Positions 37,595 to 53,634 of a stretch of DNA of 64,000 bases are shown here, piece by piece (the stretch's first letter is position 1; every line of letters starts with the position of its first letter). The notes under the pieces were generated by a model. The model did no database searches. It had not been told where the DNA came from and saw nothing but the letters and a program-made list of their open reading frames with translations. This stretch comes from Anaerolineae bacterium (GTDB lineage Bacteria > Chloroflexota > Anaerolineae > Aggregatilineales > Aggregatilineaceae): positions 1 to 64,000 of the forward strand of contig JAHDLB010000031.1 in NCBI GenBank assembly GCA_018432315.1. The letters are read 5' to 3'. A program made the translations under genes and the position numbers.

Positions 37595-39070
37595 TCACGC
37601 CAGTTGGGCGAAGATCGGCTTGAGCGCCGGGTAAGCCTCGCGAAACGCACGGTACTGCCGGTCGAAGTGCTCTGCGTGGGCCGGGTCCGGCTGGAGCGTG
37701 GCCTCGATCGGGAAGAACTCCGGCGCGGCGTAACTCGCGCGCGCGCCATGGGCGACCTGCGCGCACAGGATCGCGCCGCGCACGCCGACGTTTTCGGGGT
37801 CCGCCTGGATGGCAACCGGCAGGTGAGTCACGTCCGCGAACAACTGGCACCACCGCCGCGATCGCGTGCCGCCGCCCGTCAGGGTGAGCGTGGTCGTCGC
37901 GCCGGGGATCAGCGCGTCCAGCGCGTGGCGGTAGGCATACACCACCCCCTCCAGCACGGCGCGGCACAGATCGTCGCGGGTCGCGCTGGCGCCCAGCCCC
38001 ACGAACGCCCCGCGCGCGTGCGGATCGCTGAACGGCGCGCGCTCGCCGCTGAGATAGGGCAGGTAGAGCAGGCGTGACGGGGCGCGGTCCAGGGCGCGGG
38101 CAATCACGGTGTCGTAGTCGCCGCCGCCGAACAGGTCCCGCACCCAGTCGAGGTTGCCGCCCGCGGTGAGCAGCGGCGCGACCTGGATGGTGCGCCCGGG
38201 GGCCGGATGCGCCAGGGTGATCACGCCCTGGCCGGGTTGGGCGCGCTCCGTCGCGGTGAAGGCGATCCAGCCGCTGGTGCCCAGGTAGGCGTACACCGCC
38301 CCCGGCTCGCCGCTGCCCGCGCCGATGGTCGTCGCGCCCGCGTCGCCGGGGCCGTGATAGACCGGGATGCCCGCCGGCAGGCCGAGCGTCTCGGCGGCGG
38401 CGGACGTCAGCGCTCCGACGCGGTGGCCGCCGGGCGTGATGGGCGGCACCAGCCGGGCGCAGTCGCGGAGCCCCAGCGCGGCAAAAACCGAGTCGTCCAG
38501 CGCCGTCCGGGTCGCGAGGTTCATCAGACCGGTGGTCGAGGCCGTGGTGGTGTCGGTGGTGGCCGCGCCGGTCATATTGAGGGCGACGAAATCCGCCGCG
38601 CCCAGCAGCAGCCACCTGCTCGCCTCCAGCGCGGCGGGCTCGTGCGCTTGCAGCCACGCCAGCTTCGCCAACAGGCTGCCCGCGTCCTGGTCGTTGCCGG
38701 TCAGCTCGCGGATGCGCGCCGCGCCGAGTTGGTCGGGCAGGCGCGCCGCTTCGGCGTGGGCGCGCGTGTCGCTGTAGAGAATCACCGGGCGGACCGGGTC
38801 CCCGGCGGCATTCACCAGGATTGCGTCCTGCATCTGCCCGGTGAGCGCGATCGCGTCCACCTCGTCGAGCGCGCCGAGCGCGCGGCACGTCTCGCGGACC
38901 GCCCGCCACCAGTCGCCCGCGTCCTGCTCCATGACGCCGCCCGTGGCCGTGTGAGTCGAATACTGCCGGGTCGCGCTGCGCACGACCTGCCCCGCGCCGT
39001 CGATCAGCGCGGCTTTGGCGCCCGTGGTCCCGATGTCGAATGCCAGCCAGAGGTTTGCCATGTCGCTCAT
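37595..39070 (-). CDS. FGGY-family sugar kinase, xylulokinase-like
   Basis: 491 residues from ATG 39070, whose codon overlaps the TGA of the TrpA-like gene by 4 bases; an ATG at 39061 is possible. N-terminal phosphate motif LAFDIGTTGAKAALID, VDAIALTGQMQDAILVN where xylulokinases have GQMHG, GPGDAGATTIGAG, and the ATP motif LTGGGTRSRRWCQLFADV. The Q-M-Q-D variation at the substrate loop suggests a sugar other than plain xylulose. Last gene of the ribose-type ABC operon; phosphorylates the imported sugar or the aldolase substrate. Confidence 0.88.
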   Translation of the reverse strand: MSDMANLWLAFDIGTTGAKAALIDGAGQVVRSATRQYSTHTATGGVMEQDAGDWWRAVRETCRALGALDEVDAIALTGQMQDAILVNAAGDPVRPVILYSDTRAHAEAARLPDQLGAARIRELTGNDQDAGSLLAKLAWLQAHEPAALEASRWLLLGAADFVALNMTGAATTDTTTASTTGLMNLATRTALDDSVFAALGLRDCARLVPPITPGGHRVGALTSAAAETLGLPAGIPVYHGPGDAGATTIGAGSGEPGAVYAYLGTSGWIAFTATERAQPGQGVITLAHPAPGRTIQVAPLLTAGGNLDWVRDLFGGGDYDTVIARALDRAPSRLLYLPYLSGERAPFSDPHARGAFVGLGASATRDDLCRAVLEGVVYAYRHALDALIPGATTTLTLTGGGTRSRRWCQLFADVTHLPVAIQADPENVGVRGAILCAQVAHGARASYAAPEFFPIEATLQPDPAHAEHFDRQYRAFREAYPALKPIFAQLA

Positions 39071-39867
39071 CCCGCGTCGTAATAGGTTGCGTCGCGCAAC
39101 GTCCGGATATAATCCACGAGAGCGCTCTCGCCCGCCTGCATCTGCTCGACGAGCTTCGTCCCGATGATTGCCATGTCCGCGCCGATGCGGGCCAGGGCGG
39201 CGACCTGCTGCGGGCGCTGGAGGCCGATCCCGACCGCGATGGGGATGTCCGGGTCGATGGCGCGAATCCGCCGGATCGCGTCCGCCACCACCGCGCTCAG
39301 TTCGCCCTCGATGTCCGCGGGCTGGCCCGTGCGCCCGGCCCCGGCCTTCAGATAGACGACGTTGCCCAGCCCGATGCGCTCGTGCAGCACGTCGTCCGGC
39401 GCGTGCGCGTCGATCAGCGTCAGCACGGCCAGGTTCAGCGCCTCGGCGATGGTCTTTACGTAGCGGCCTTCTTCCGGCTCGATGTCGGGCGCGATAAGCC
39501 CGTGGATGTGGTTCTCGACGCACAGGCGCAGGAAGCCGCTGAGCGCGCGCCCGACCGCGGTGTAGGTCATCACGAAGCGCGGCTGGGGAATGTGCCGCAG
39601 GCCGCCGAGCAGGGCCATCGCGGTTTCGGCCCCGATGCCGCGCTGGTGGATGACGACGTCGTGCGCGCTGGCGATCACCGGGCCGTCCATCGCGGGCGTG
39701 GGTGAGGGGATGCCGAACTCGATCACGTCCAGATCACCGGCGGCGCGCACCAGCCGGTAGAAGTCGTCCGGCGACGGATAGCCCGCCAGGAAATAGCCGC
39801 ACAGCGCCATGCGCCCCGCGGCCCGCGTGCGTTTGAGGGTGAGGAGTAGATGATTCGCGTTGCTCAT
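39067..39867 (-). CDS. TrpA-like (tryptophan synthase alpha-type) aldolase in a sugar operon
   Basis: 266 residues, a TIM barrel of the TrpA family. The catalytic acid/base pair of TrpA is conserved: E50 in DVIEFGIP and D61 in AMDGPVI, matching E49 and D60 of the Salmonella enzyme. VVYLKAGAGRTG corresponds to the YLVS/TGxTG loop and VGIGLQRPQQV...GTKLV to the phosphate-binding end. The FS(D)PLADGP signature is changed to PSPTPAMDGP. No trp genes are near; the gene lies between a ribose-type permease and an FGGY kinase and overlaps the kinase by ATGA. A retro-aldol reaction on a sugar phosphate is inferred. Annotation pipelines will name it trpA. Confidence 0.85.
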   Translation of the reverse strand: MSNANHLLLTLKRTRAAGRMALCGYFLAGYPSPDDFYRLVRAAGDLDVIEFGIPSPTPAMDGPVIASAHDVVIHQRGIGAETAMALLGGLRHIPQPRFVMTYTAVGRALSGFLRLCVENHIHGLIAPDIEPEEGRYVKTIAEALNLAVLTLIDAHAPDDVLHERIGLGNVVYLKAGAGRTGQPADIEGELSAVVADAIRRIRAIDPDIPIAVGIGLQRPQQVAALARIGADMAIIGTKLVEQMQAGESALVDYIRTLRDATYYDAG

Positions 39868-39882
39868 CGGGTTCCTCCGCGC

Positions 39883-40899
39883 TCAGCGCCGCGACAGGCT
39901 GCTCAACGTCACGGCCAGGACGATAATGCCGCCGGTCAGAATCTGCTGGATGTACGTGTCGATCTGCATCTGGGTGAGCCCGTTCGCCAGCACGCCCAGG
40001 ATCAGCACGCCGAGCATGGTCGCCAGCACGTGCGGCTCGCCCTCTTCGCTCATCGTCATGCCCAGGAACACGGCGGCGATGGCCCGCAGCATCAGCCCGT
40101 CGCCCTGCGTCGGGTTGGCCGACGCCAGCCGGCTGACGAGCATCAGCCCGGCGATGGCCGCCCCCATGCCGCTGATCACGAACGCCATCAGCCGCAGCAT
40201 CCGCACGCGCACGCCGCCCAGGCGCGCCGCCTCCATGTTGCCGCCGATGGCGTACAGGCGGCGGCCAAAGACGGTTTGCTCCAGCACGATCCACACCACG
40301 ATCAGCACGACGAGCGTGATGATCGTCAGGTAGGGCAGGGTGATTCGCTGGCCGTCGACGATGCCCAGGTAGATGCCGCCGCGCCCGAAATCGCTGAGCG
40401 CGGTGGGGATGGCGCGCCCGAAGATGGTGGTGCCGCCGCTGATGTACAGCGCCAGCCCGTTGAACATGGTCAGCGTGCCCAGCGTGGCGACGAACGGCGA
40501 GATGCGGATGTAGGACACCAGGACGCCGTTCAGCAGACCCCCGCCGGCCCCGACCAACAGCCCCAGCCCCAGCGCCACGCCCAGCATGTACCCGTCGCGC
40601 AGCAGCGTCCCGGCGACGATGCCGACCATGCTCGCCATCGTGCCCACGCTCAGGTCGAAGTCGTTGAGGACCATCACGATCGTCATGGTGGCCGCCACCA
40701 CGCCCAGGATGCTTACCTGCTGCGTGATGTTCACCCAGTTGCGCACGTTCATGAACGTGTCGGGTTTCTGCCACGAGAAGAACGCCACGATCACGATGAA
40801 GCCGATGAGCGTGCCAAACTGCCGGAACAGGCGCGCCCACCGGACGCGCCCCCCCCTCCACGAACGGGCGTCATCAGTGGCTTGCGGGCTGGTTGTCAT
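39883..40899 (-). CDS. Ribose-type ABC transporter permease (RbsC family)
   Basis: 338 residues with 8-10 membrane segments. Hallmarks: SILGVVAATMTIVMVLNDFDLSVGTMASMVG in pieces (the DLSVG motif), GLLNGVLVSYIRISPFVATLGTLTMFNGLALYISGG in pieces, and the R-L-G-G-V loop that meets the ATPase. The start ATG lies 26 bases inside the ATPase gene. Sixteen bases separate it from the TrpA-like gene. Confidence 0.92.
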   Translation of the reverse strand: MTTSPQATDDARSWRGGRVRWARLFRQFGTLIGFIVIVAFFSWQKPDTFMNVRNWVNITQQVSILGVVAATMTIVMVLNDFDLSVGTMASMVGIVAGTLLRDGYMLGVALGLGLLVGAGGGLLNGVLVSYIRISPFVATLGTLTMFNGLALYISGGTTIFGRAIPTALSDFGRGGIYLGIVDGQRITLPYLTIITLVVLIVVWIVLEQTVFGRRLYAIGGNMEAARLGGVRVRMLRLMAFVISGMGAAIAGLMLVSRLASANPTQGDGLMLRAIAAVFLGMTMSEEGEPHVLATMLGVLILGVLANGLTQMQIDTYIQQILTGGIIVLAVTLSSLSRR

Positions 40900-42472
40900 C
40901 CGAGAGCTCTCCGTAACACAGCGTCAAAAGTTCGTTTTCGGTCAGCGCTTCGGTCTGCACGGTGTGGACCAGCGCGCCGTCGCGCAGGATCAGGATGCGG
41001 TCGCACATGCCGATCAGCTCGGGCAGGTCTGACGACACCATGATGATGCCGGTGCCCTGCGCGTTGATCTTGCGAATCAGCGTGTAGATGTCGAATTTCG
41101 CGCCCACGTCCACGCCGCGCGTCGGCTCGTCGAGCAGCAGGATCTGCGGCGAGCGCGCAAATGCCCGCGCAAAGACCGTTTTTTGCTGGTTGCCGCCGCT
41201 CAACTGCCAGGTCGCCTGGGTCACGCCTTCGGCTTTGAGACGCACGGCCTCGCTCATCTCGGCGCTGGTTCGGCGCTCGCGCCCGTGGTTGAGAAACGTG
41301 CCGCGCCGGGCCAGGTGGCGCAGGTGCGGCAGCGTGATGTTGTCGCTGATGCTGCGCGACAGCACCAGCCCCTGCGAGCGGCGCTCCTCCGGCACGTAGG
41401 CCATGCCCTGGTCCCAGGCTTCGGCGGGGGACCGGGCCTGCAGCGCCGCCCCGTTGAGCGACACAGTCCCGGCCAGCACGCGGTCGGCCCGGATCAGGGC
41501 GCGCAGCAGCTCGGTGCGCCCCGCGCCGCTCAGCCCGGCCACGCCGAGAATCTCGTTTTCGTAGAGCTGGAACGAGACGCCGTGAATCGCGCGCGTGGTC
41601 AGCTCCCGCACGTCGAGCAGCACGCGCTCGCTCACCTGCACGTCCGGCCCGCGCGGGGGATAGACCTGCTGGAGATCGCGCCCGGTCATCATGCGGATCA
41701 GGCCGGCGGCAGTCGTGCCCTCGATCGGCACGCAGTCCACCACGCGCCCGTCGCGCAGCACGGTGACGCGATCGGCGAGCTGGAAGATCTCGTCCAGGCG
41801 GTGCGTCACGTACAGGATGGCGCAGCCGCTGGCGCGCAGCCGGTCGATCACCTCGAACAGGCGCGCCGCTTCCGACGTGCTGAGCGCGGCGGTCGGCTCG
41901 TCCATCACGTAGATCGCGACGGCGCGCTCGCCCGCCGCGGACGGATTGGCGTCCACGAACGCGCTGGCGATCTTGACCAGCATCTGGTCGCCGGGGCTGA
42001 GACGGGCCATGATCTGCCCCGGCGCGAGGTGGGTGATGCCCAGTTGGGCGAGCACGTCACGCGTCTGGCGGTGCAGCCGCCGCCAGTGGACGAACACCCC
42101 GGCGCGGGTCGGGTAGCGCTGGTTGAGGAAGACGTTCTCGGCGACCGATAGCGTGGGGACGGCGTTCAATTCCTGGTGGATGAAGCGCAGCCCGGCGTCG
42201 AAGGCGTCGCGCGCTTCGCGGAAATTCACCGGCTGGCCGCGCACCGCCATCGCGATCGAATCGGCGGACAGCACCCCGGCCATCAGCTTGATCAGGGTCG
42301 ATTTCCCGGCGCCGTTCTCGCCGATCAGCGCGTGGACTTCGCCGGCCCGCAAGGTGAGCGAGGCATCCACCAGGGCGGGGATGCCGTGATAGGCTTTGTT
42401 GGCGCCGGTGATGTGCAGCAGCAGAGTCGACTCGGCGGGCGCCGGCGTGGGTGGTGGGTGGACCATCGTCAT
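40874..42472 (-). CDS. Ribose-type ABC transporter ATP-binding protein (RbsA/MglA family, two ATPase domains)
   Basis: 532 residues. First ATPase domain: Walker A GENGAGKSTLIKLMAG, Walker B IYVMDEPTAALS, then VTHRLDEIFQLADRVTVLRDG. Second domain: degenerate Walker A GLSGAGRTELLRALI, signature LSGGNQQKTVFARAFA, Walker B LLLDEPTRGVDVGAK, as usual for this family. An ATG at 42466 is an alternative start; neither has a clear ribosome site, which suggests coupling to the upstream binding protein through the hairpin region. Confidence 0.92.
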   Translation of the reverse strand: MTMVHPPPTPAPAESTLLLHITGANKAYHGIPALVDASLTLRAGEVHALIGENGAGKSTLIKLMAGVLSADSIAMAVRGQPVNFREARDAFDAGLRFIHQELNAVPTLSVAENVFLNQRYPTRAGVFVHWRRLHRQTRDVLAQLGITHLAPGQIMARLSPGDQMLVKIASAFVDANPSAAGERAVAIYVMDEPTAALSTSEAARLFEVIDRLRASGCAILYVTHRLDEIFQLADRVTVLRDGRVVDCVPIEGTTAAGLIRMMTGRDLQQVYPPRGPDVQVSERVLLDVRELTTRAIHGVSFQLYENEILGVAGLSGAGRTELLRALIRADRVLAGTVSLNGAALQARSPAEAWDQGMAYVPEERRSQGLVLSRSISDNITLPHLRHLARRGTFLNHGRERRTSAEMSEAVRLKAEGVTQATWQLSGGNQQKTVFARAFARSPQILLLDEPTRGVDVGAKFDIYTLIRKINAQGTGIIMVSSDLPELIGMCDRILILRDGALVHTVQTEALTENELLTLCYGELSDDNQPASH

Positions 42473-42493
42473 GAGTATTGCTTATGGTTTGGC

Positions 42494-42520
42494 GGGGCGA
42501 TCCCTCGCCTGGATCGCCCC
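42494..42520 (-). repeat. Post-binding-protein hairpin (ribose-type operon 1)
   Basis: GGGGCGATCC (42494-42503) and GGATCGCCCC (42511-42520) pair perfectly around a 7-base loop, between the binding protein stop and the ATPase start. No T tract. Same position as the hairpins at 30811, 46332 and 53443. Confidence 0.65.
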
Positions 42521-42563
42521 TGAAAGAATCACTGTCTGCGCGGCGAAAACGGCGCGATTGCCG

Positions 42564-43505
42564 CTACTCGTCCAGCGCGTTAGCCGCGGTGATGAGCTTC
42601 GTCGGCACGTAGTACGTCGACTGCACGATCTCCTCGCCGCCCAGGTACGCCTCGACCAGATCCGCTACCTGCCGCGCGATGCCGGGGAAGTCCTGCGCGA
42701 CGGTCGCCTCGAAGCTGCCGCCCATGCTGATGGCGTCGCGGGCCTGCGGCGTGGCGTCGATGCCCACGATGACGATGCCCTCTTCTTCACGACCGGCGGC
42801 CTGGATGGCCTGCAGCGCGCCGAGGGCCGGCTCGTCCCACGCCGCCCACACCGCGTCGATGCTGCCTGGGTCCGGGTTGGCGAGCAGCACGGCTTCCATC
42901 GCGTTCCGCGCGCCTTCCAGCGGCCCGGCGTCGAAGCTCGGCGTGATCTTATCGACGATGGTGATGTCCGGCGTGTTGTTGAAGATGGCCTCGGCGATGA
43001 TGCCGCGCTTCTGCACGGGCGGGTACGGCTCGAAGATGAACATGACGACGCTGCCCTCGCCGTTCAGGCGGTCGACCACGTAGGTGGCGGTTTCGGCAGC
43101 CATCGCGTATCCGTTGCTTGTCACGTTGGCGACCAGCAGCGGGTCGGTGCCGGAGTCCATGCCAAAGACCGGGATGCCGGCTTCGGCAACCGCCGCCAGC
43201 CCGGCGGAGATCTGCGTCGGGTCGACGTTGATGACGATGGCGTCCACGTCCTGCAGGGCCACGTCCTCCATCCGGCTGATCAGGGCGGAAATGTCCTCAG
43301 CCGTGTCGATCACCTGCACGTCCCACCCCTTTTCGGCGGCGTACTCGGTGAAGGCATCGACCATCAACTGCGTGCCCGGCTGGGCCAGCCAGGGAGTCAT
43401 CACCACGACGCTGGGCGCGTCGCCGTCCTGGGCCGATACCGCACTGGCGGCAAAACCGGCCAACACGAGCGCGATCACAAGGGTAAGATACATTGTTCGC
43501 TTCAT
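42564..43505 (-). CDS. Ribose-type sugar-binding protein (RbsB family)
   Basis: 313 residues from ATG 43505; the open frame continues far upstream on the minus strand but that part is opposite ROK2 and not coding. Signal peptide ends SAVSAQ; no lipobox Cys. VVVMTPWLAQPGTQLMVDAF, AIVINVDPTQISAGLAAVAEAGIPVFGMDSG in pieces and GIDATPQARDAI follow the periplasmic-binding-protein type 1 pattern. AAAGGA lies upstream of the start. First gene of a five-gene operon divergent from ROK2. Confidence 0.9.
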   Translation of the reverse strand: MKRTMYLTLVIALVLAGFAASAVSAQDGDAPSVVVMTPWLAQPGTQLMVDAFTEYAAEKGWDVQVIDTAEDISALISRMEDVALQDVDAIVINVDPTQISAGLAAVAEAGIPVFGMDSGTDPLLVANVTSNGYAMAAETATYVVDRLNGEGSVVMFIFEPYPPVQKRGIIAEAIFNNTPDITIVDKITPSFDAGPLEGARNAMEAVLLANPDPGSIDAVWAAWDEPALGALQAIQAAGREEEGIVIVGIDATPQARDAISMGGSFEATVAQDFPGIARQVADLVEAYLGGEEIVQSTYYVPTKLITAANALDE

Positions 43506-43751: not shown

Positions 43752-44921
43752 ATGGCCCGAAAACAACTCCTTAAAGCGATCAATCGCGTTTCCATCCTCA
43801 ATGTGATCAAGTCGCACGGTCCCATCGCGCGGACGGACATCGCCGAGCGGACCGGGCTGAGTCCCGCCACGGTCACCGGGTTGACGGCGGAGCTGATCGA
43901 GGATGGTCTCGTGCAGATCAAGCAGGAAGGCGACTCGCGGGGCGGGCGGCGGCCCATTTTGCTGGCGCTCGATTCGCGCGGCGCGTACGTCGTGGGCATC
44001 AAGCTGGCCGAGGAACACGCCACGCTCGCCCTGACCGACCTGAACGCCGAAGTCGTCACGCGGCGCACCGTCCAGCTTGGCGAGCGCGATCCGGAGCACG
44101 TGTCGCACCTGCTGGCCGACAGCGTGCGGGGGCTGCTGCGCGCGGCGGGGATCAACCAGGGGCACCTGCTGGGCGTTGGGGTGGGGCTGGCCGGGATCAT
44201 CGATCCGCAGACCGGGCTGTGCCGCGTGTCGCCGCACAACGGTTGGCGCGACGTGCCGTTCGCCAAGCTGCTCGAAGACGAGCTCGGTTGCATCGTCTAC
44301 CTCGACAACAACGTGAACACGCTGACGCGGATCGAGCAGTTGTACGGCGTCGGGCAGCACGTGCGCGATTTCCTGGTCATCACGATCGGGCGCGGCATCG
44401 GCATGGGCATCGTCGCCAACGGGCAGGTGTACCGCGGCGCGCACGGCGGCGGCGGCGAGTTCGGCCACATGGTCATCGATCCAGACGGGCTGGTGTGCGG
44501 CTGTGGCAACCAGGGCTGCCTGGAGACGTTCGTCGCCGAGCCGTGGCTGCTGCACCGCGCGCGCGAACGCGGCCTGGACGTGGCCGAAGCCGACGACCTG
44601 ATCGCGGCGGCCCAGGCCGGCAACGCGGTCGCGCTGGAGGTGCTCGCCGGGGCCGGGCGCGTGCTGGGGCAGGCGATGGCGAGCGTGGTCAATCTGCTCA
44701 ATCCCAGGCTGATCATCATCAGCGGCGAGGGCGTGCGCGCCGGGGATTTCATGTTCGCGCCGATGCGCGAGGCGGCCTACCGGCACATGTTCGCGCAGTT
44801 GGCCGAGGACGTCGAGATCCGCATCGAGCCGTTGAGCGACGACACCTGGGCGCGCGGGGCGGCCAGCCTGGTGCTGGGCAAGCTGTTCAGCCTGCCCGAG
44901 CTGGAGCCCAGCCTCGGATGA
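43752..44921 (+). CDS. ROK-family transcriptional regulator (ROK2)
   Basis: 389 residues. Winged helix at about 15-65 (HGPIARTDIAERTGLSPATVTGLTAELI in pieces), then the ROK fold: GVGVGLAGIID, DNNVNTLTRIEQLYG, GRGIGMGIVANG and the zinc motif CGCGNQGCLETFV. Strongly similar in layout to ROK1. It stands between a divergent ribose-type operon and a co-directional dextran-type operon, so it may control both. It begins right at the candidate operator, which points to autoregulation. Confidence 0.9.
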   Translation: MARKQLLKAINRVSILNVIKSHGPIARTDIAERTGLSPATVTGLTAELIEDGLVQIKQEGDSRGGRRPILLALDSRGAYVVGIKLAEEHATLALTDLNAEVVTRRTVQLGERDPEHVSHLLADSVRGLLRAAGINQGHLLGVGVGLAGIIDPQTGLCRVSPHNGWRDVPFAKLLEDELGCIVYLDNNVNTLTRIEQLYGVGQHVRDFLVITIGRGIGMGIVANGQVYRGAHGGGGEFGHMVIDPDGLVCGCGNQGCLETFVAEPWLLHRARERGLDVAEADDLIAAAQAGNAVALEVLAGAGRVLGQAMASVVNLLNPRLIIISGEGVRAGDFMFAPMREAAYRHMFAQLAEDVEIRIEPLSDDTWARGAASLVLGKLFSLPELEPSLG

Positions 44922-44969: not shown

Positions 44970-45075
44970 AAGTGGGTCCAGTTTCCAGGAGGTGACAGCG
45001 AAAAATCGGACATCGAACGCAAGCCAGACCATCTTTTTACGCACGAGTACTTGATAAGCACGGGAGAACTTGAAG

Positions 45076-46314
45076 ATGAAACGCAAACTGTTGATTGCCC
45101 TGTTGGTTGTCGTTCTGGCGATTCCCCTGGGCGTGACGAGCGCCCGGCAGGATACCGTGACGATCGAATTCTGGCACACCTACAACGAGGTGTCGCCGGA
45201 GAACGAGATGCTGGTCGAGACGCTGATCCCGATGTTCGAGGAAGCGAATCCGGGCATCAAGGTCGAGTCGGTCCCGTTCCCGTATGACGAGTTCCGGCAG
45301 ACGATGCTCACCGCGCTGGCGGGCGGCGAAGGCCCCGACCTGGCCCGGCTGGACATCATCTGGTCGCCGGAGTTTGCCGAGCTGGGCGTGCTCGAGGCGC
45401 TGGACGAGGTCATGCCCGACTTCCAGGACTACGCCGACCGCGTCTTCCCCGGCCCGCTGTCCACGAACAGCTACGACGGCCACTACTACGGCCTGCCGCT
45501 CGACACGAACACGCGCATCCTGTGGTGGAACGCGGCCATGTACGAGGCGGCGGGCATCGACGGGCCGCCCGCCACCATCGACGAGCTGGCCGCGCAGTGC
45601 GAGGCGATCAAGGCGCTGGGCGATGATAAGTACGTGTTCAGCGACGGCGGCACCTACGGCTGGGCCGTGCTGCCCTGGGTGTGGAGCATGGGCGGCGACG
45701 TCACCGATCCGGACATCACCCAGGCGTCCGGCTATCTGAACGGCAAAGCGACCGTCGCGGCCTACGAATTCCTGGCCGAGATGGTGGATAACGGCTGCTT
45801 CTCGCCGTCCTTCCTGGGCGGCGGCCTGGGCACCGAGGGCTTCTTCACCGACGTGTTCGCCACGGTGCTCGAAGGCCCGTGGTGGTACCCGCTGGCCGAA
45901 GCGCAGTATCCCGACTTCGAGATCCACACGTCGCTGATGCCCGCCGGGGATGGCGGCTCGATCTCGGTCGTCGGCGGCGAGAATATCGCGTTGTTCAAGG
46001 GCGCGGAGACGGAAGCGGCGCTCGCGTTCCTGCGGTTTACCCAGAGCGACGACTACCAGTTGAAGATGTCCGAGGTCGGCCAGTTGGCGGTCATCCCCGA
46101 GCTGATCGAAACGGACTACTTCCAGAACCATCCCTACTACGGGACGTTCCTGACGCAGCTCGAAACGGCCAAAGCGCGCACGCCGCACCCGCGTTGGACC
46201 CAGATGGAAGAGGTCCTGACCGAAGCGGGCCAGTTGATCCTGCGCGGCGAGGCGTCCGCGCAAGAGGCGTTGGACATGGCGGCAGAGGAAATCGACGCTC
46301 TGCTGGCCGAGTAA
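45076..46314 (+). CDS. Extracellular sugar-binding protein (ABC family 1)
   Basis: 412 residues from ATG 45076, with GGGAG 9 bases upstream (a TTG six bases earlier is less likely). Signal MKRKLLIALLVVVLAIPLGVTSA in pieces, no lipobox. Mature part DTVTIEFWHTYNEVSPENEMLVE, IPMFEEANPGIKVESVPFPYDEF and ALAGGEGPDLARLDIIW, each the family 1 pattern; W-rich sugar site (LWWNAAMYEAAG). First structural gene after ROK2; followed by a REP-like hairpin and two permeases. Confidence 0.92.
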   Translation: MKRKLLIALLVVVLAIPLGVTSARQDTVTIEFWHTYNEVSPENEMLVETLIPMFEEANPGIKVESVPFPYDEFRQTMLTALAGGEGPDLARLDIIWSPEFAELGVLEALDEVMPDFQDYADRVFPGPLSTNSYDGHYYGLPLDTNTRILWWNAAMYEAAGIDGPPATIDELAAQCEAIKALGDDKYVFSDGGTYGWAVLPWVWSMGGDVTDPDITQASGYLNGKATVAAYEFLAEMVDNGCFSPSFLGGGLGTEGFFTDVFATVLEGPWWYPLAEAQYPDFEIHTSLMPAGDGGSISVVGGENIALFKGAETEAALAFLRFTQSDDYQLKMSEVGQLAVIPELIETDYFQNHPYYGTFLTQLETAKARTPHPRWTQMEEVLTEAGQLILRGEASAQEALDMAAEEIDALLAE

Positions 46315-46331
46315 CGGCACCCGGTCGGGGC

Positions 46332-46358
46332 GTAGGGGCGGGCGCGGCCTGCCCCTAC
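46332..46358 (+). repeat. REP-like palindrome after the binding protein (operon 2)
   Basis: GTAGGGGC (46332-46339) and GCCCCTAC (46351-46358) form a perfect stem. The GTAGGGGC...GCCCCTAC form looks like a dispersed intergenic palindrome. It sits 18 bases after the binding-protein stop. Confidence 0.6.
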
Positions 46359-46405
46359 ACATCACCCCCTCGCCCAGGCCCTTTGCCAATCAGTTGAGGC
46401 AAACG

Positions 46406-47299
46406 ATGCGCGCCAAACTCCATCACCAGTGGTACGTTCCTTATATGTTCTTACTCCCCGGCCTGGCGCTGTACGTGCTGTGGATGCTCTACCCGCTGGG
46501 CTACGAGTTTTACATCAGCTTTTTCGACTGGAAGATCATGCCGGGCCAGACCAGCGAGTTCGTCGGCCTGGAGAATTACCGGCGCGTGCTGGACGACCGC
46601 AATTTCTGGCTCGCCCTCGAAAACACGGCACGCTACACCGTGATCACCGTCGCCGGCCAGATGGTCCTGGGGCTGGGGCTGGCGGTGCTCATCGACCGCG
46701 TCTTCACCGGCCAGCGCCTGTTTCGCGCCATCTACTACGTGCCTGTCGTCACGTCGTGGGTCGTGGTGAGCTTCCTGTTCCAGTTCCTGTTCGTGTCGCA
46801 TCCCGGCGGGCTGGTCAACTACGTGCTGGTCGAGATGCTGCACGTCCTGTCCGAGCCGGTCGCCTGGATGAGCCAGCCGGGCACCGCCTGGGTGATCATC
46901 TACTCGCTCGGCATCTGGAAAGGCGTGGGCTGGGCGATGGTGATCTTCCTGGCCGCCCTGCAGGGCATCCCGGTGGAACTGTACGAGGCGGCGGCCATCG
47001 ACGGGGCGGGCGAGTGGCGGCGCTTCCGCTTCGTGACGGTCCCGCTCATTCGCCAGACCACGCTGTTCGTGATGATCGCGCTCATCATCGGCGGCTTCCA
47101 GGCGTTCATCTCGGTGCTGCTGATCACCGGCGGCGGCCCGCTGCACCGCACCGAGGTCGTGCTCAGCTACATGTACGACCGCGCGTTTGGCCGCCTGTGG
47201 TTCGGCTATGGCGCGGCGATCAGCTACATCCTGGCGGCGATCATCGTCATGGTGAGCGCGCTCCAGATGAAGCTGTTCAGCCGACCGGTTGAGTATTGA
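46406..47299 (+). CDS. Carbohydrate ABC transporter permease (MalF type)
   Basis: 297 residues from ATG 46406, preceded by GAGG; a TTG at 46394 is possible. Six membrane segments. Starts WYVPYMFLLPGLALYVLWMLYPLG in pieces, EAA loop PVELYEAAAIDGAGEWRRFRFVTVPLI, ends with MYDRAFGRLWFGYGAAISYILAAII in pieces. Pairs with the next permease. No ATPase gene in this operon either. Confidence 0.92.
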   Translation: MRAKLHHQWYVPYMFLLPGLALYVLWMLYPLGYEFYISFFDWKIMPGQTSEFVGLENYRRVLDDRNFWLALENTARYTVITVAGQMVLGLGLAVLIDRVFTGQRLFRAIYYVPVVTSWVVVSFLFQFLFVSHPGGLVNYVLVEMLHVLSEPVAWMSQPGTAWVIIYSLGIWKGVGWAMVIFLAALQGIPVELYEAAAIDGAGEWRRFRFVTVPLIRQTTLFVMIALIIGGFQAFISVLLITGGGPLHRTEVVLSYMYDRAFGRLWFGYGAAISYILAAIIVMVSALQMKLFSRPVEY

Positions 47300-47310
47300 G
47301 AGGCGCTCCC

Positions 47311-48156
47311 ATGATCTTTGCCAACACACGCTCACAACGCGGTTTCCAGATCACGATCCTGGCCGTTCTGTGCCTGGGCGCGGTCGTGGCGATGGCGCCG
47401 ATGGTCTACATGGCCTCGACCGCCTTCAAACCGAACGCCTACTCGCCGGAGTTCCCGCCGACGTTCATCCCGGACAACCCCACGCTGAAGAACTTCGAGA
47501 CGGCGTTCTCCAGCCGCAACTTCGTCCGGGCGTTTTTCAACAGCCTGGGGGTGGCGGTGGCTACGTCCGCGCTGGTCACGACGCTGACCGCGATGATGGC
47601 CTACGCGTTCGCCCGCTTCGAGTTTCGCGGCAAGAACCCGATCTATTACTCCGTCCTGGCGATGATGATGGTTCCGACGATGATGCTGATCATCCCGCAG
47701 TTTATGGTCGCCAGAAGGTTGGGCATGCTCGACAGCCTGCCGGGCCTCGTGCTGGTCTACACTGCCGGCGCGATGGCGTTCAACATGTTCCTGCTGCGCG
47801 GGTTCTTCGAGACGCTCCCGCGCGAGCTGGAGGAGTCGGCGCTGATCGACGGCGCCAACCATTTCGTGATCTTCGCGCGCATCATGGTGCCGCTGGCGCG
47901 CCCCGCGCTGAGCACGGTCGCCGTGTTCTCGTTCCTGGGAGCGTGGGATGAATACATCTGGGCGCTCACCGTGCTGACCGACCTGGAGAAGCGCACGCTG
48001 CCGGTCGCGATCGCCAACTTTCGCGGGCAGCACGCCAGCGACTGGGGCCTGGTGTTCGCCGCGTCGCTGACGGCGGTCGTGCCGACGATCCTGCTGTTCA
48101 TCTTCTTCCAGCGCTACTTCGTCAAAGGGATCACGGCGGGGGCGTTGAAGGGATGA
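47311..48156 (+). CDS. Carbohydrate ABC transporter permease (MalG type)
   Basis: 281 residues from ATG 47311 with GAGAGG 8 bases upstream. Six membrane segments, EAA loop RELEESALIDGANHFVIFARIMVPLARPAL in pieces, C-terminus FFQRYFVKGITAGALKG, the usual MalG ending. Its stop overlaps the start of the GH66-like gene (ATGA). Confidence 0.92.
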   Translation: MIFANTRSQRGFQITILAVLCLGAVVAMAPMVYMASTAFKPNAYSPEFPPTFIPDNPTLKNFETAFSSRNFVRAFFNSLGVAVATSALVTTLTAMMAYAFARFEFRGKNPIYYSVLAMMMVPTMMLIIPQFMVARRLGMLDSLPGLVLVYTAGAMAFNMFLLRGFFETLPRELEESALIDGANHFVIFARIMVPLARPALSTVAVFSFLGAWDEYIWALTVLTDLEKRTLPVAIANFRGQHASDWGLVFAASLTAVVPTILLFIFFQRYFVKGITAGALKG

Positions 48157-49856
48157 TGCGCGCCTCACTCGCGGCGCTCTTGGGCGCGCTGTTCCTGGTT
48201 TTCGCTGGAGGTAAAGCCTACATGCAGGTGAATGCTGCGGTCGACATTGTTCCCCACAAGGCGTTCTTCCGTCCGGGAGAAACGGCCACCTTCCTGGTCA
48301 CCGCCCGCGGCGGCGAGCGTGCTGAGGCGACGATCACGCACCTCGCCGAGACGGTGGCCGTGCTCGACGTGACCCTGCGCGACGGCTCGGTGGCCCTGGC
48401 CTGGACGCCGCCGCCCGACGCGCCGCGCGGTTACGGCATCACGGTTCGCCTGCTGGACGGCGACCGGACGCTGGCGACCGCGTCCACCGCGTTCGACGTG
48501 CTGGAGCGCTGGACCCAGGCGCCGCGTTACGGGTTCCTGAGCGAGTTCGCGCCGGGCCGCGACGACGCCCAGGCCGCCATCGACGGGCTGCTGCGCTATC
48601 ACGTCAACGGCTTGCAGTTCTACGACTGGCAGTACCGGCACGAAACCCTGCTGCCGCCCGGCGATCCCTACACGGACCCCCTGGGGCGGCGCATGTCGCT
48701 GGCGACGGTCGAGCGCCTGATCGACGCGGCCCACGCGCGGGGCATCGCCGCCATGCCGTACACCGCGATCTACGGCGCGTCACCGGCTTTCTACCAACAG
48801 CACCCGGAATGGGCGCTGCTCCAGGCGACCGGGAAGCCGTTCGAATTCGCCGATGGGTTCCTGATCATCATGGACCCCAGCCCTGGGTCGCCCTGGAACG
48901 CCCACCTGTTGGGCGAATTCGCCCGCGTGCTGGACGAAACCGCCTTCGACGGCATTCACATCGACCAGTACGGCGCGCCGCAGATCGGGAAGAACGCGGC
49001 GGGCGAGCGCGTCGACCTGGCGGAGGTGTTCCCGGCGTTCATCGACCAGACGGCGGTCCTGGTCCGCGAAAAGCGTGGCGAGGCGGGCGCGGTGATCTTC
49101 AACGCCGTGCGCAACTGGCCGGTGGACACCGTCGCCTCGTCCGATCAGGACGCGGTCTACATCGAGGTCTGGGACCCGTACCGCGACTTCATGGACCTGC
49201 ACCGGCTGGTGGTCCGGGCGCAGGACCTCGGCGGCGGCAAGCCGGTCATCCTGGCGGCCTACATTCACCCCGATCACCGCCACAACGTGCGGCTGGCGAA
49301 CGCGGTCATCTTCGCCAGCGGCGGGACGCACCTGGAACTGGGCGAGCCGGGCGCCATGCTGGCCGATCCGTACTTCCCCAAGTTCGGCGCGATGGACGCG
49401 GACGTGCAGGCGACGACCCGGCGCTATTACGATTTCCTGGTGCGCTACGAGGACGTGCTGGCGACCGGCACCACCGACGCGACGGCAGCGCGCGGCGACG
49501 CCCTGCTGATCGAGGGGGTCCGAACCCGGTCGCTCCGCTCGCGGGACCGCGTGGCCGTGATCGTGCGCCAGGGCCGCGACTTCGAGACGTTCAGCCTCGT
49601 GAACCTGTTGGGGCTCGACAGCGGCGAATGGGCGCGCCCGCTCGCCGGCGGGCCCGATCCGCTGGACGACGTGGCGCTGCGGATCTACACGGATCGCCCG
49701 GTTGCCCGCCTGTGGTGGGCCTCGCCGGATGGCGACAACCTGGACGCTGTCCCCGTCGACACTGCGGCGGGACGCGACGAAAACGGCGCTTACGTGGCCT
49801 TGCGGCTGCCCCGCCTCGATTATTGGACCATGATTGTGCTGGAGTATGAATCTTGA
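48153..49856 (+). CDS. Glycoside hydrolase family 66-like (dextranase/cyclodextran-forming type)
   Basis: 567 residues. Hydrophobic N-terminus (SLAALLGALFLVFAGGKA) acts as signal or anchor. A beta-sandwich (about 35-115) precedes the barrel: HVNGLQFYDWQYRHE, the nucleophile Asp in FDGIHIDQYG and the acid/base Glu in AVYIEVWD, the positions seen in GH66 dextranases; PVILAAYIHPDH and a C-terminal beta domain follow. GH66 enzymes cut alpha-1,6-glucan. Coupled to the permease gene by ATGA overlap and to the GH15 gene by TTGA overlap. Signals suggest export, so it would feed isomalto-oligosaccharides to the transporter. Confidence 0.85.
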   Translation: MMRASLAALLGALFLVFAGGKAYMQVNAAVDIVPHKAFFRPGETATFLVTARGGERAEATITHLAETVAVLDVTLRDGSVALAWTPPPDAPRGYGITVRLLDGDRTLATASTAFDVLERWTQAPRYGFLSEFAPGRDDAQAAIDGLLRYHVNGLQFYDWQYRHETLLPPGDPYTDPLGRRMSLATVERLIDAAHARGIAAMPYTAIYGASPAFYQQHPEWALLQATGKPFEFADGFLIIMDPSPGSPWNAHLLGEFARVLDETAFDGIHIDQYGAPQIGKNAAGERVDLAEVFPAFIDQTAVLVREKRGEAGAVIFNAVRNWPVDTVASSDQDAVYIEVWDPYRDFMDLHRLVVRAQDLGGGKPVILAAYIHPDHRHNVRLANAVIFASGGTHLELGEPGAMLADPYFPKFGAMDADVQATTRRYYDFLVRYEDVLATGTTDATAARGDALLIEGVRTRSLRSRDRVAVIVRQGRDFETFSLVNLLGLDSGEWARPLAGGPDPLDDVALRIYTDRPVARLWWASPDGDNLDAVPVDTAAGRDENGAYVALRLPRLDYWTMIVLEYES

Positions 49857-51001
49857 ACGACCGTGCGCGTAGCCAACGCATTTACCAACGAAGTCTCGCC
49901 GTCATCCTGGAAAACCAGCAGCCCGGCGGCGCCTATCTCGCCTGCCCGACGATGCCCGACTACCAGTTTTCCTGGTTCCGCGACGGCGCCTATATCGCCT
50001 ATGCGCTGGCGCTGGACGCGCAGGCGGGGGACGTCTTCCACGAGGGCAGCATGGCGGCCCAGATCGAGAGCGCGCGGGAATTTCACGACTGGTGCGCCCG
50101 CGTGATCAACGACCGGGCCGAGGCCGTGGAGCGCAGCATCGAGCGTGCGGCGCGCGGCGAGCCGCCCGTGCTGGCCGATACGCTGAATGCGCGCTACCGG
50201 GCCAACGGCCACGCCGGGCCGGACGACTGGCCCGAATTCCAGCTCGACGGGGTGGGGACGTGGCTGTGGTCGCTGGCCGAGTACGCCGACCGGGCGCACA
50301 CGCCCCCGCTGCCGCTGGCGTGGGAGCGCGCGATCACGCTGGCGGCGCGCTACCTGGCCGCCATGTGGCAGGTGCCGTGTTACGACTGCTGGGAAGAGCG
50401 CGGCGGCGACATTCACATCAGCACGCTGGGCGCGATCTATGCCGGGCTGGCCGCTTCGAGCCGGCTGGTGCCGTCCCTGAACTGGGACGACACGACCGCG
50501 GCCATCCGGCGCTTCGTGCTGGCCCAGGGGCTGACGCCGGGCGGCGAGCTGGCGAAATCCGTCGGGCTGGACATGGTCGACGCGAACCTGATCGGCGTTG
50601 CCGTGCCGCACCGCCTGCTGGAGCCGGACGACCCGGTGATGCGGCGTACGGTCGCGCGCATCGAGCGCGAGCTTCACGCGCCGGGCAGCGGCATTCACCG
50701 CCACCTCGAAGACGTGTACTACGGGGGTGGGGCGTGGGTGCTGCTGGCGTTGTGGCTGGCGTGGTATTACCTGGAAGTGGGCGAGCGCCAGCGGGCGGAC
50801 GACCTGATCGCCTGGGCCGAGAGCCGGGCCGACGCGGACGGCAACCTGCCCGAACAGGTCCCCGACCCGATGCTGGCGTCGGCGTGGCATTACGACGACT
50901 GGGTCCGGCGGCGCGGCCCGATCGCCCAGCCGCTGGTCTGGTCGCACGCGCAGTACATCATCGCGCGCCGGATGGGTGGGGGCGCGCAGCCGGTCGGCTG
51001 A
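49853..51001 (+). CDS. Glycoside hydrolase family 15-like (glucodextranase type), paralogue 2
   Basis: 382 residues from a TTG start at 49853, which overlaps the previous TGA and has GGAG 8 bases upstream; no ATG or GTG fits better. Same order of motifs as the gene at 30859: FSWFRDGAYIAYA, DDWPEFQLDGVGTWLWSL, CYDCWEERGGDIHIS with the acid Glu, VYYGGGAWVLLALWLAW, DGNLPEQV with the base Glu, LVWSHAQYI. No signal peptide, so cytoplasmic. Placed after a GH66-like enzyme it probably removes glucose from alpha-1,6 oligosaccharides. Confidence 0.87.
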   Translation: MNDRARSQRIYQRSLAVILENQQPGGAYLACPTMPDYQFSWFRDGAYIAYALALDAQAGDVFHEGSMAAQIESAREFHDWCARVINDRAEAVERSIERAARGEPPVLADTLNARYRANGHAGPDDWPEFQLDGVGTWLWSLAEYADRAHTPPLPLAWERAITLAARYLAAMWQVPCYDCWEERGGDIHISTLGAIYAGLAASSRLVPSLNWDDTTAAIRRFVLAQGLTPGGELAKSVGLDMVDANLIGVAVPHRLLEPDDPVMRRTVARIERELHAPGSGIHRHLEDVYYGGGAWVLLALWLAWYYLEVGERQRADDLIAWAESRADADGNLPEQVPDPMLASAWHYDDWVRRRGPIAQPLVWSHAQYIIARRMGGGAQPVG

Positions 51002-52006: not shown

Positions 52007-52346
52007 GGTTCTCATCCTCGTTGTGCATGGCTGTCGCCGAGACCGGCGGTCCTGGCGTGCAGAAGGTGCCGCCCCCATTATAGCCGATCGCGCCCAGCCC
52101 CGTGATCGCCGGGACCGGCAGCGTCCTTCAGGCTCTGGGAGCCCTCCCATCTGGTTGTCAAAACGCCCGTCCTGTCCTACAATGAGCGTTAGTGTCAGTC
52201 CGTTCTACCTGCGTTCGAGAACGGAGCACCTTACGTCTTTCCTGATCGTCCTGCAAGTTATAGTGAGTGTCTGTTTTATCGGCTTCCGGCGGCCAACACC
52301 GGAAATTGTTGTATAACGAATGTTCTTATTCAAAAGGAGCCCCGCT
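52007..52346. promoter_or_regulatory. Divergent control region between the PfkB kinase and the mtn-type operon
   Basis: 340 bases without a gene. Plus strand promoter at 52155-52183 (listed). Minus strand has a perfect TATAAT (complement of 52077-52082), 71 bases before the kinase ATG, without a good -35. A small hairpin TTCCGG/CCGGAA (52284-52304) lies in the plus-strand leader. Confidence 0.5.
52155..52183 (+). promoter_or_regulatory. Promoter of the ribose-type/mtn operon
   Basis: TTGTCA at 52155-52160, 17 bases, TACAAT at 52178-52183. One mismatch in each hexamer. The leader would be about 155 bases. Confidence 0.65.
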
Positions 52347-53426
52347 ATGTCTAGCAGACTCAACCGCCGCGATTTTCTTAGAAGCAGCATGTTCCTCAGC
52401 TCGGGCTTTGCATTTGCCCAACTCATGCCGTTCATCGAATATCGCCGGGCCCACGCGCAGGACCAACCGCTGCGGGCAGCCATGTCGAGCGCCGGGCTGG
52501 CCGGCACGTGGAACGCCCAGGGTGAAGAGGCCGCCCGCTGGATGGGTGACCTGCTGGGGGTCAACATCACCTGGTTTGACGGTGAGTTCGATCCGGCGGC
52601 CCAGCGCGCAAAGTTCGACCAGCTCTCCACCCAGGAATGGGACTTCGTCGCCGTGCAGCCCAACTCGATTGGCGCCCTGATCGAGCCGATCATGACCCTG
52701 GTCGCAGCCGGCACGCCGATCATCGACATGGACACGCTGATCGCCCCGCTGCAGGACCTGCCCGACCTGGGCGTGCTCACCTTCATCGCGCCCGACAACG
52801 TCTTCATGGCCGAGTCGGTCGTCCAGAAACTGATCGACATGATGGGTGGCGCGGGCAAGATCTCGCACATCGGCGGCCAGCCGGGCCACACCGGTGCGCA
52901 GGCGCGCGGTCAGGGCTTCTGGAACCTGGTCAGCAAGTACCCGGATATCGAAGTGGTCGACGACCAGCCCGCCGACTGGGACGTGACGAAGGCGGCGGAC
53001 CTGACGGAAACCGTCCTCAACCGCCATCCCGATCTCAAGGCCATCTTCGCCGACAACGACGACATGGCGCTGGCCGCGCGGCAGATCGTCGAGAACGCGG
53101 GCCTGGCCGACCAGGTGCTGGTCGGTGGTGTGGACGCGATGCCGCCGGCGATCGAAGCCGTGCGCGATGGTCGCCTGGTTGCCACGGCGCGCAACTCGGC
53201 CTGCCGCATCCATAGCTGGGCGGTCCTGGCCGGCGCGTACGCCGCCTCGATCGGCCTGGAGCAGGCGCGCCAGGAGATTCCGTTCTACGTCTTGGCGGAT
53301 GGCCCGGCGATCTTCGCCGACATCGACACCAACCCCGATCTGGCCGAGGAGCCGTGGAAGCTGCGCAACTATGGCCTGTCGGCGGCTGATGGCTTGCTGT
53401 GGGCATCATCCCAGTACCTCTTCTAG
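52347..53426 (+). CDS. Ribose-type sugar-binding protein with twin-arginine signal
   Basis: 359 residues from ATG 52347, which has AAAAGGAG upstream. The N-terminus SSRLNRRDFLRSSMFLSSG has a clear Tat motif (RRDFL) followed by a weakly hydrophobic stretch and AHAQD cleavage. The mature domain is RbsB-like: AAMSSAGLAGTWNAQGEEAARWMG in pieces, FVAVQPNSIGALIEPIMTLVAAGTPIIDMD in pieces, IFADNDDMALAARQIVE, VGGVDAMPPAIEAV. Export in folded form is unusual for sugar-binding proteins. First gene of a six-gene operon. Confidence 0.88.
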   Translation: MSSRLNRRDFLRSSMFLSSGFAFAQLMPFIEYRRAHAQDQPLRAAMSSAGLAGTWNAQGEEAARWMGDLLGVNITWFDGEFDPAAQRAKFDQLSTQEWDFVAVQPNSIGALIEPIMTLVAAGTPIIDMDTLIAPLQDLPDLGVLTFIAPDNVFMAESVVQKLIDMMGGAGKISHIGGQPGHTGAQARGQGFWNLVSKYPDIEVVDDQPADWDVTKAADLTETVLNRHPDLKAIFADNDDMALAARQIVENAGLADQVLVGGVDAMPPAIEAVRDGRLVATARNSACRIHSWAVLAGAYAASIGLEQARQEIPFYVLADGPAIFADIDTNPDLAEEPWKLRNYGLSAADGLLWASSQYLF

Positions 53427-53442
53427 TCCTTGCCGAACGAAC

Positions 53443-53478
53443 GAGGCGGTGGTGGGGTGACCGCCGCCTCTGTCTTCT
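53443..53478 (+). terminator. Hairpin after the Tat-type binding protein; partial terminator
   Basis: GAGGCGGTGG (53443-53452) pairs with CCGCCGCCTC (53461-53470) with one G-U pair and is followed by TGTCTTCT. Weak T-rich tail; likely partial termination so that the binding protein is made in excess. Confidence 0.5.
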
Positions 53479-53582
53479 CGCCGAGGAAAGACCGCGCCAA
53501 TCACCATGATCCCCCGCCGCCGACGGTCTTTCTGGTTCGACAGAACAGGCAAGCGAGCCTGTTCCTGGCAATATGATGTCGT

Positions 53583-53608
53583 GAACCTCGCGCTCGTGGG
53601 CGAGGTTC
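53583..53608 (+). repeat. Second hairpin before the ATPase gene
   Basis: GAACCTCGC (53583-53591) and GCGAGGTTC (53600-53608) pair perfectly. It ends 26 bases before the GTG start of the ATPase. Similar in sequence to the hairpin before mtnK. Confidence 0.55.
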
Positions 53609-53634
53609 AGTCACATGTTTGAAAGGGCGCACTT

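Follow-up and report, generated by a model that had tools for sequence, protein, structure and literature searches.

A TrpA paralogue family encoded with the transporter and FGGY kinase genes of a sugar operon

TrpA is the textbook enzyme for channelling and allostery with its partner TrpB, and it splits a carbon–carbon bond adjoining a phosphorylated triol. Its plant homologue BX1, an indole-3-glycerol phosphate lyase, works without TrpB. The class I aldolases of family PF01791 are barrel enzymes that carry their catalytic Lys on strand beta-6. PMC8187860 gives Glu49 and Asp60 as the catalytic residues of TrpA; in the simulations of the complex described there, alpha-Gln65, alpha-Asn104, alpha-Asp56, and alpha-Leu177 with alpha-Phe212 contact TrpB, and alpha-Pro156 lies in a network path. 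At the level of the operon, the closest functional precedent is Rbl of Citrobacter rodentium. According to PMC12307932, an ABC transporter imports D-ribulose, an FGGY D-ribulokinase phosphorylates it, and an isomerase gene, whose deletion caused no growth defect, completes the operon. Here we describe a TrpA-like enzyme (TL) encoded in a window of 64,000 nucleotides from an Anaerolineae bacterium (GenBank assembly GCA_018432315.1, contig JAHDLB010000031.1, positions 1 to 64,000). TL is one of nine members found of a family that occurs together with a sugar transporter and an FGGY kinase.

The operon in the window comprises five genes in the same direction, coding for a binding protein, an ATPase, a permease, TL, and a kinase:

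42564..43505, minus strand: CUT2 periplasmic sugar-binding protein, ATG at 43505 (Pfam Peripla_BP_4, E 2.7e-40, run from codon 2)
40874..42472, minus strand: CUT2 sugar ABC transporter ATPase with two ABC domains (Pfam ABC_tran, two stretches)
39883..40899, minus strand: CUT2 sugar ABC transporter permease (Pfam BPD_transp_2, E 2.1e-37)
39067..39867, minus strand: TrpA-like enzyme TL, 266 amino acids (Pfam Trp_syntA, E 1.1e-31)
39718..39720, minus strand: codon of TL E50, equivalent to the catalytic Glu49 of TrpA, invariant in 9/9 TL and 31/31 TrpA rows
39685..39687, minus strand: codon of TL D61, equivalent to the catalytic Asp60 of TrpA, invariant in 9/9 TL and 31/31 TrpA rows
39346..39348, minus strand: codon of TL K174, the last residue of strand beta-6, at the Leu177 position of Salmonella TrpA (alignment and DSSP of the model)
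37595..39070, minus strand: FGGY carbohydrate kinase, 491 amino acids from the ATG at 39070 or 488 from the ATG at 39061

TL starts 15 bases after the permease stop, and its own stop overlaps the first ATG of the kinase by four bases (ATGA, 39070-39067). The original prediction, made from the letters of the window, had placed TL between permease and kinase with this overlap, and the coordinates agree. The best NCBIfam models for the ATPase were the AraG, RbsA, and xylose-type ATPases, and those for the permease were the ribose, L-arabinose (AraH), GguB, and D-allose permeases; none reached its cut-off in either case. The kinase matched FGGY_N (E 8e-48) and FGGY_C (E 9.8e-29) in Pfam, and scored 308 bits against the XylB model TIGR01312, under the cut-off of 380.

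TL scored 110 bits against Trp_syntA (cut-off 27). Against the NCBIfam trpA equivalog TIGR00262 it reached 86.4 bits, under the cut-off of 102.35. The Pfam scan at E 0.001 also returned a sub-threshold His_biosynth match; neither PF01791 nor any Pfam epimerase family matched TL at this value. Alignment placed TL E50 on Salmonella TrpA E49 and TL D61 on D60, with the surrounding motif reading IPSPTPAMDG in TL versus VPFSDPLADG in the Salmonella enzyme. The catalytic pair in altered surroundings, as first proposed, was thereby recovered. In a tree of 40 rows, the nine TL sequences were split from the 31 TrpA sequences by a branch with a support of 100/98, L055 (the most distant TL member) and the Salmonella row having long branches. 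The phylogeny proposed in the original prediction thus sets TL apart from true TrpA, and by its sequence TL is a TrpA paralogue family.

The same prediction had noted the absence of trp genes nearby and had proposed a search for a trpA beside trpB elsewhere in the genome. No trp gene was present among the 16 open reading frames scanned with Pfam, which cover part of the window. The sole other Trp_syntA match in the genome (G000:C51:174099-174812, 283 bits) lies on another contig with trpB directly upstream. Because this separate trpA adjoins trpB in the same genome, TL is not the tryptophan enzyme of its host. True trpA (269-287 bits) and trpB were over the cut-off in seven of the nine host genomes, and the host-genome searches gave two further PF00290 matches below the cut-off (L095 and L096).

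TL could also be no more than a second copy of TrpA, or a lyase that, like plant BX1, releases indole on its own, as its catalytic residues and fold are those of TrpA, and BX1 is among its best structural matches (1tjr). We regard this as very unlikely in view of the separate trpA and trpB in seven of nine hosts, the score under the TIGR00262 cut-off, the link to sugar genes in all nine members, and the replacement of residues tied to TrpB contact; an activity like that of BX1 would need no sugar kinase. An ordinary duplicate of trpA was rejected in view of the separate trpA–trpB pair and the sugar-operon setting of all members found.

The family was collected in several searches. A protein search in 396 genomes drawn from the class gave one clear orthologue besides the window, with 60% identity. 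Scanning a one-genome-per-species collection with two peptide patterns, which could miss distant members outside the phylum, gave five loci; these are five of the eight members of the profile search and were counted once. The profile search in 154 genomes of the order yielded eight matches (428-492 bits), and these were all that reached E 1e-30. In 400 genomes drawn from the phylum, it added one distant member (genome G421, 135 bits, locus L055), while a match in G656 was rejected as a trpA with trpB. In the class of G421, 16 of 29 genomes, G421 included, were matched by the profile at E 1e-30; 11 of these loci were examined and all had a trpB match beside them, the four remaining matches having similar low scores. 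The nine members thus consist of eight close ones and L055. The other seven close members are 57–70% identical to the window TL. For L055 the identity is 33–34%, and its partner proteins are 44–49% identical; its host belongs to another class.

Record titles name Chloroflexi-type bacteria for most relatives. One record with a 60%-identical operon (L038, JAHHHY010000002.1) is titled Pleurocapsa minor, a cyanobacterium. This title seems to name the wrong organism, and L038 was taken as G055:C5, whose genome is assigned to the same order as the window. Two scans of viral contigs with peptide patterns found no relative. Plasmid matches came from 12 records, all under 60% identity, and two of the four plasmid loci opened lay within trp operons. 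The TrpA-like genes on the Tritonibacter (L057) and Embleya (L058) plasmids, with 31–32% identity, had neither trpB nor sugar genes within 6 kb.

In all nine members, TL adjoins genes for the kinase, permease, ATPase, and binding protein, although three loci run into contig ends, so that the binding protein gene is truncated in L034 and that of the kinase in L035 and L054. The gene order of the window is kept in eight of the nine loci; in L055 the genes run GntR regulator, ATPase, permease, TL, kinase, with the binding protein last. The arrangement is not due to chance, because the same module recurs in eight further genomes. Within the stretch covered, trpB was absent from all nine TL loci. 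The neighbourhood survey suggested in the original prediction therefore bore out the link of TL to sugar genes. With this survey and the search for a separate trpA, the idea came through both of the refutation tests.

As controls, 47 trpA loci were inspected, mostly with flanks of about 1.5 kb. Here, trpB was found in 41, a kinase match in one (L024), and an ATPase match in one (L018), the latter two loci also having trpB; a permease or binding protein occurred in none of the 47. This comparison tallies the binding protein in eight of nine TL loci, as the short locus standing in for the window stops short of this gene, which the window does contain. Six control loci (L010, L015, L022, L081, L084, and L085) had no trpB match in the stretch covered. 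By coordinates, trpB lies about 2–3 kb upstream on the same contig in L081, L084, and L085.

Residues were compared in an alignment of the nine TL sequences with 31 TrpA rows (30 loci and Salmonella TrpA). A column was taken as near-fixed if 30 or more of the 31 TrpA rows shared the same residue, and as kept if this residue occurred in at least eight of nine TL rows. Of 49 near-fixed columns, 26 were kept and 23 lost. The kept positions include, in TrpA numbering, E49, D60, Y102, D130, Y175, T183, G184, G211, and G213, and the lost ones include F54, S55, D56, A59, Q65, N104, P105, P132, P156, F212, G230, and S235. The N104 position is gapped in eight TL rows as aligned, and F212 is lost in eight of nine. 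Each of the positions D56, Q65, N104, P156, L177, and F212, taken as linked to TrpB contact from PMC8187860, is replaced in eight or nine of the nine members. At the position of Salmonella Leu177, the TrpA rows have Val (29) or Leu (2), and the TL rows have Lys (8) or Arg (1, L055). Position 153, at the end of beta-5, is Asp in the eight close members and Ala in L055. TL has thus lost the residues linked to TrpB contact and kept the catalytic pair with most of the phosphate-loop residues.

Pairwise pN/pS values (nonsynonymous over synonymous differences) were between 0.15 and 0.50 in 28 of 28 pairs of the eight close members, a rough figure only because synonymous sites are near saturation. 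This points to purifying selection. The selection, together with two catalytic residues fixed in nine of nine members over a deep divergence, speaks against a TL that is non-catalytic in sugar breakdown, for instance a sensor or a sugar-phosphate-binding protein, and we give such a role hardly any probability.

With the above results in hand, we propose tentatively, and with slightly less than even confidence, that TL acts in a self-contained module of import, phosphorylation, and processing, in which it performs a retro-aldol cleavage on the sugar phosphate made by the kinase. The CUT2 transporter would bring in a sugar, most likely a ketose or its close kin, the FGGY kinase would phosphorylate it, and TL would then act on the resulting sugar phosphate. 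TL would be a TrpA paralogue freed from TrpB, which probably still grips the phosphate through the TrpA loops (T180-G181, G213/G215, and G236-T237) and retains E50 and D61 as the acid–base pair. A basic residue (K174, or Arg in L055) stands where TrpA is hydrophobic on its TrpB side. A cofactor-free retro-aldol reaction of the TrpA type, with a triose phosphate as one product and a small carbonyl compound as the other, seems the likeliest chemistry and is favored because both catalytic residues are unchanged. The interpretation in the original prediction, that such chemistry could split the sugar phosphate made by the kinase, is thereby supported in part.

Several observations weigh against this proposal. 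No gene of the operon encodes an enzyme that would handle the second product of cleavage. Dihydroxyacetone kinase (Dak1) was found in two of the nine hosts and not in the other seven, some of whose genomes are incomplete. This pattern speaks against dihydroxyacetone as a required product and weakens the simple version in which TL splits a hexulose 6-phosphate to form it; an aldolase of that kind was not retained as the sole answer. All nine TL members have Thr where the phosphate loop of TrpA has Ser235. Two host genomes, G757 (84% complete) and G421 (88%), have no separate trpA or trpB over the cut-off; in G421 a fragment of trpB lies close to the end of a contig, and incomplete assembly is the likely cause in both. 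The chemistry itself also raises an objection. TrpA relies on indole to stabilize the carbanion, and we know of no such stabilization by an ordinary ketose without a metal or a Schiff base. Finally, an epimerase would require no further enzyme.

Some of these objections turn into support if TL is a sugar-phosphate epimerase or isomerase acting on the phosphorylated imported ketose. E50, D61, and perhaps K174 would then move protons, or a reversible retro-aldol step would be followed by re-addition, giving a ketose phosphate of central metabolism. The module would be complete as it stands, Dak1 would not be missed in seven of nine hosts, and Rbl has an isomerase in this slot (PMC12307932). The sub-threshold His_biosynth match also fits a phosphate-binding barrel with isomerase relatives. 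However, the closest kin of TL by sequence and structure are the TrpA lyases, no Pfam epimerase family was matched, and deletion of the Rbl isomerase gene caused no growth defect. The epimerase or isomerase appears nearly as good an explanation as the retro-aldol enzyme, and we consider it a serious if somewhat doubtful candidate.

The structure model of TL is a barrel, with a pLDDT (predicted local distance difference test) of 85.8 and a pTM (predicted template modelling score) of 0.87. DSSP assigned a strand to residues 170-174, with K174 as its last residue. Foldseek and VIA-align ranked TrpA and BX1 first, the best match being 1k3u (Z 33.8, root mean square deviation 1.9, 254 aligned residues). 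This fold is expected from the sequence and is therefore silent on the substrate. Class I aldolases and epimerases were not among the 50 structural matches listed, which tells nothing either way.

The position of K174 on beta-6 raises the idea that the TrpA scaffold became a Schiff-base aldolase of the class I type independently, with K174 forming an imine with the ketose phosphate of the kinase and glyceraldehyde 3-phosphate being released. If true, this would amount to a route of sugar breakdown that has its own aldolase family, and the Arg of L055 would mark a non-covalent variant; we hold it to be unlikely. Homology between K174 and the catalytic Lys of the class I aldolases seems doubtful. 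Profile comparison of TL with four PF01791 proteins was uninformative (probabilities of at most 3.5% and no usable register), and by eye the class I Lys register falls on Y172 of TL, two residues off K174.

Hints on the substrate come from the kinase and the binding protein. The nearest PDB relatives of the kinase are the xylulokinases 3hz6 and 2itm; its GQMQ and GDAG motifs are common to 3hz6, where 2itm has GQMH and GDNA. The nearest PDB sequences of the binding protein are 3l49, 2ioy, and 4wt7. Its best model out of five had a pLDDT of 89.3 (66-78 for the other four) and gave Z values of about 31 to 4kq9, 4rwe, 4wt7, and 3l49. In PMC10318746, 4WT7 is an allitol-bound binding protein, in which docked sorbitol has polar contacts with H61, R89, R187, D268, and Q290. 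Among these contacts, R187, D268, and Q290 align with R166, D249, and Q270 of the window protein (constant offset 17); R89 aligns with E69, and H61 is outside the alignment. This fits a monosaccharide or polyol as the imported compound, no more, and the kinase and binding protein give a class hint only.

Another account stays closer to the chemistry of indole-3-glycerol phosphate. Here TL would cleave a C-linked compound, for example an aromatic C-glycoside or a glycerol derivative, after its import and phosphorylation. E49, D60, Y102, and Y175 are all kept, and the bond that TrpA already splits, beside a phosphorylated triol, is of this kind. F212 is lost in eight of nine members and K/R174 gained in nine of nine, so the site looks more polar, and the binding protein keeps the Arg, Asp, and Gln that touch the docked sorbitol, going by the contacts given in PMC10318746. 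We therefore consider a C-linked substrate decidedly unlikely.

Beyond the five genes, flanking open reading frames were scanned with Pfam for the window and six loci (L033/L038, L035, L036, L037, L053, and L055; L034 and L054 were left out). They were mostly unrelated (histidine kinases, GHMP kinases, a helicase, an acyl-carrier-protein synthase, and others). Further sugar ABC transporters lie beside L033/L038 and L035. An inositol-phosphatase family gene lies upstream in L035; L036 has, about 2.4 kb downstream and on the opposite strand, an aldehyde dehydrogenase, and L053 a ROK-family protein downstream. The scanned flanks showed no further sugar-phosphate aldolase or isomerase. The window has a divergent regulator gene next to the operon:

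43752..44921, plus strand: ROK-family regulator (Pfam ROK and winged-helix domains)

This regulator possibly controls the TL operon. Among the other loci, those covering that side have no match to it upstream of their operon, and a 30% match sits downstream of the kinase in L053. A second sugar cluster follows at 45070-51001 on the plus strand, with an SBP_bac_8 solute-binding protein (45070-46314), two further open reading frames to 48156 that look like permeases, a glycosyl hydrolase family 66 protein (48153-49856), and a family 15 protein (49853-51001). Its content suggests a putative use of alpha-glucan or dextran. Also on the plus strand, 52320-55116 encodes another CUT2-type binding protein (52320-53426, Peripla_BP_4) and, at 53635-55116, an ABC ATPase in which ABC_tran matches two stretches.

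The fold and the operon type are already known. What is new is that a TrpA paralogue is combined with a sugar operon, that it lacks residues linked to TrpB contact, and that its position 174 is basic; among the open-licence papers listed in literature searches, no title dealt with a paralogue of TrpA in such an operon. The TL family shows how the TrpA–TrpB machinery can be uncoupled, with the catalytic pair kept and the contact-linked residues replaced, and the comparison yields a clear list of testable residues. It also illustrates that the Pfam-level label 'TrpA' on a second copy can conceal a sugar enzyme, and points to an undescribed sugar route, testable with five genes, in Chloroflexi-type bacteria.

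Compared with TrpA (PF00290, TIGR00262), TL shares the fold, the catalytic Glu and Asp, Tyr102, Tyr175, and most phosphate-loop residues. It differs in having no trpB partner, in the replacement of D56, Q65, N104, P156, and F212 in eight or nine of nine members, in the changes of L177 to Lys or Arg and S235 to Thr, and in its score under the TIGR00262 cut-off. BX1 is a TrpA homologue with a fold similar to that of TL, but it belongs to chemical plant defence according to the title of PDB entry 1rd5, whereas TL is tied to a sugar transporter and a kinase. The PF01791 class I aldolases (DeoC/FbaB/LacD/LsrF) have their catalytic Lys on beta-6, and the model of TL has a Lys at the end of this strand; however, TL has no PF01791 match and L055 carries Arg instead of Lys. 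Rbl, like the TL operon, has genes for an ABC transporter, whose binding protein is of the SBP_2 family, for an FGGY kinase, and for one sugar enzyme. Its third enzyme is a KpsF-like isomerase, and the TL operon has a TrpA paralogue in that slot.

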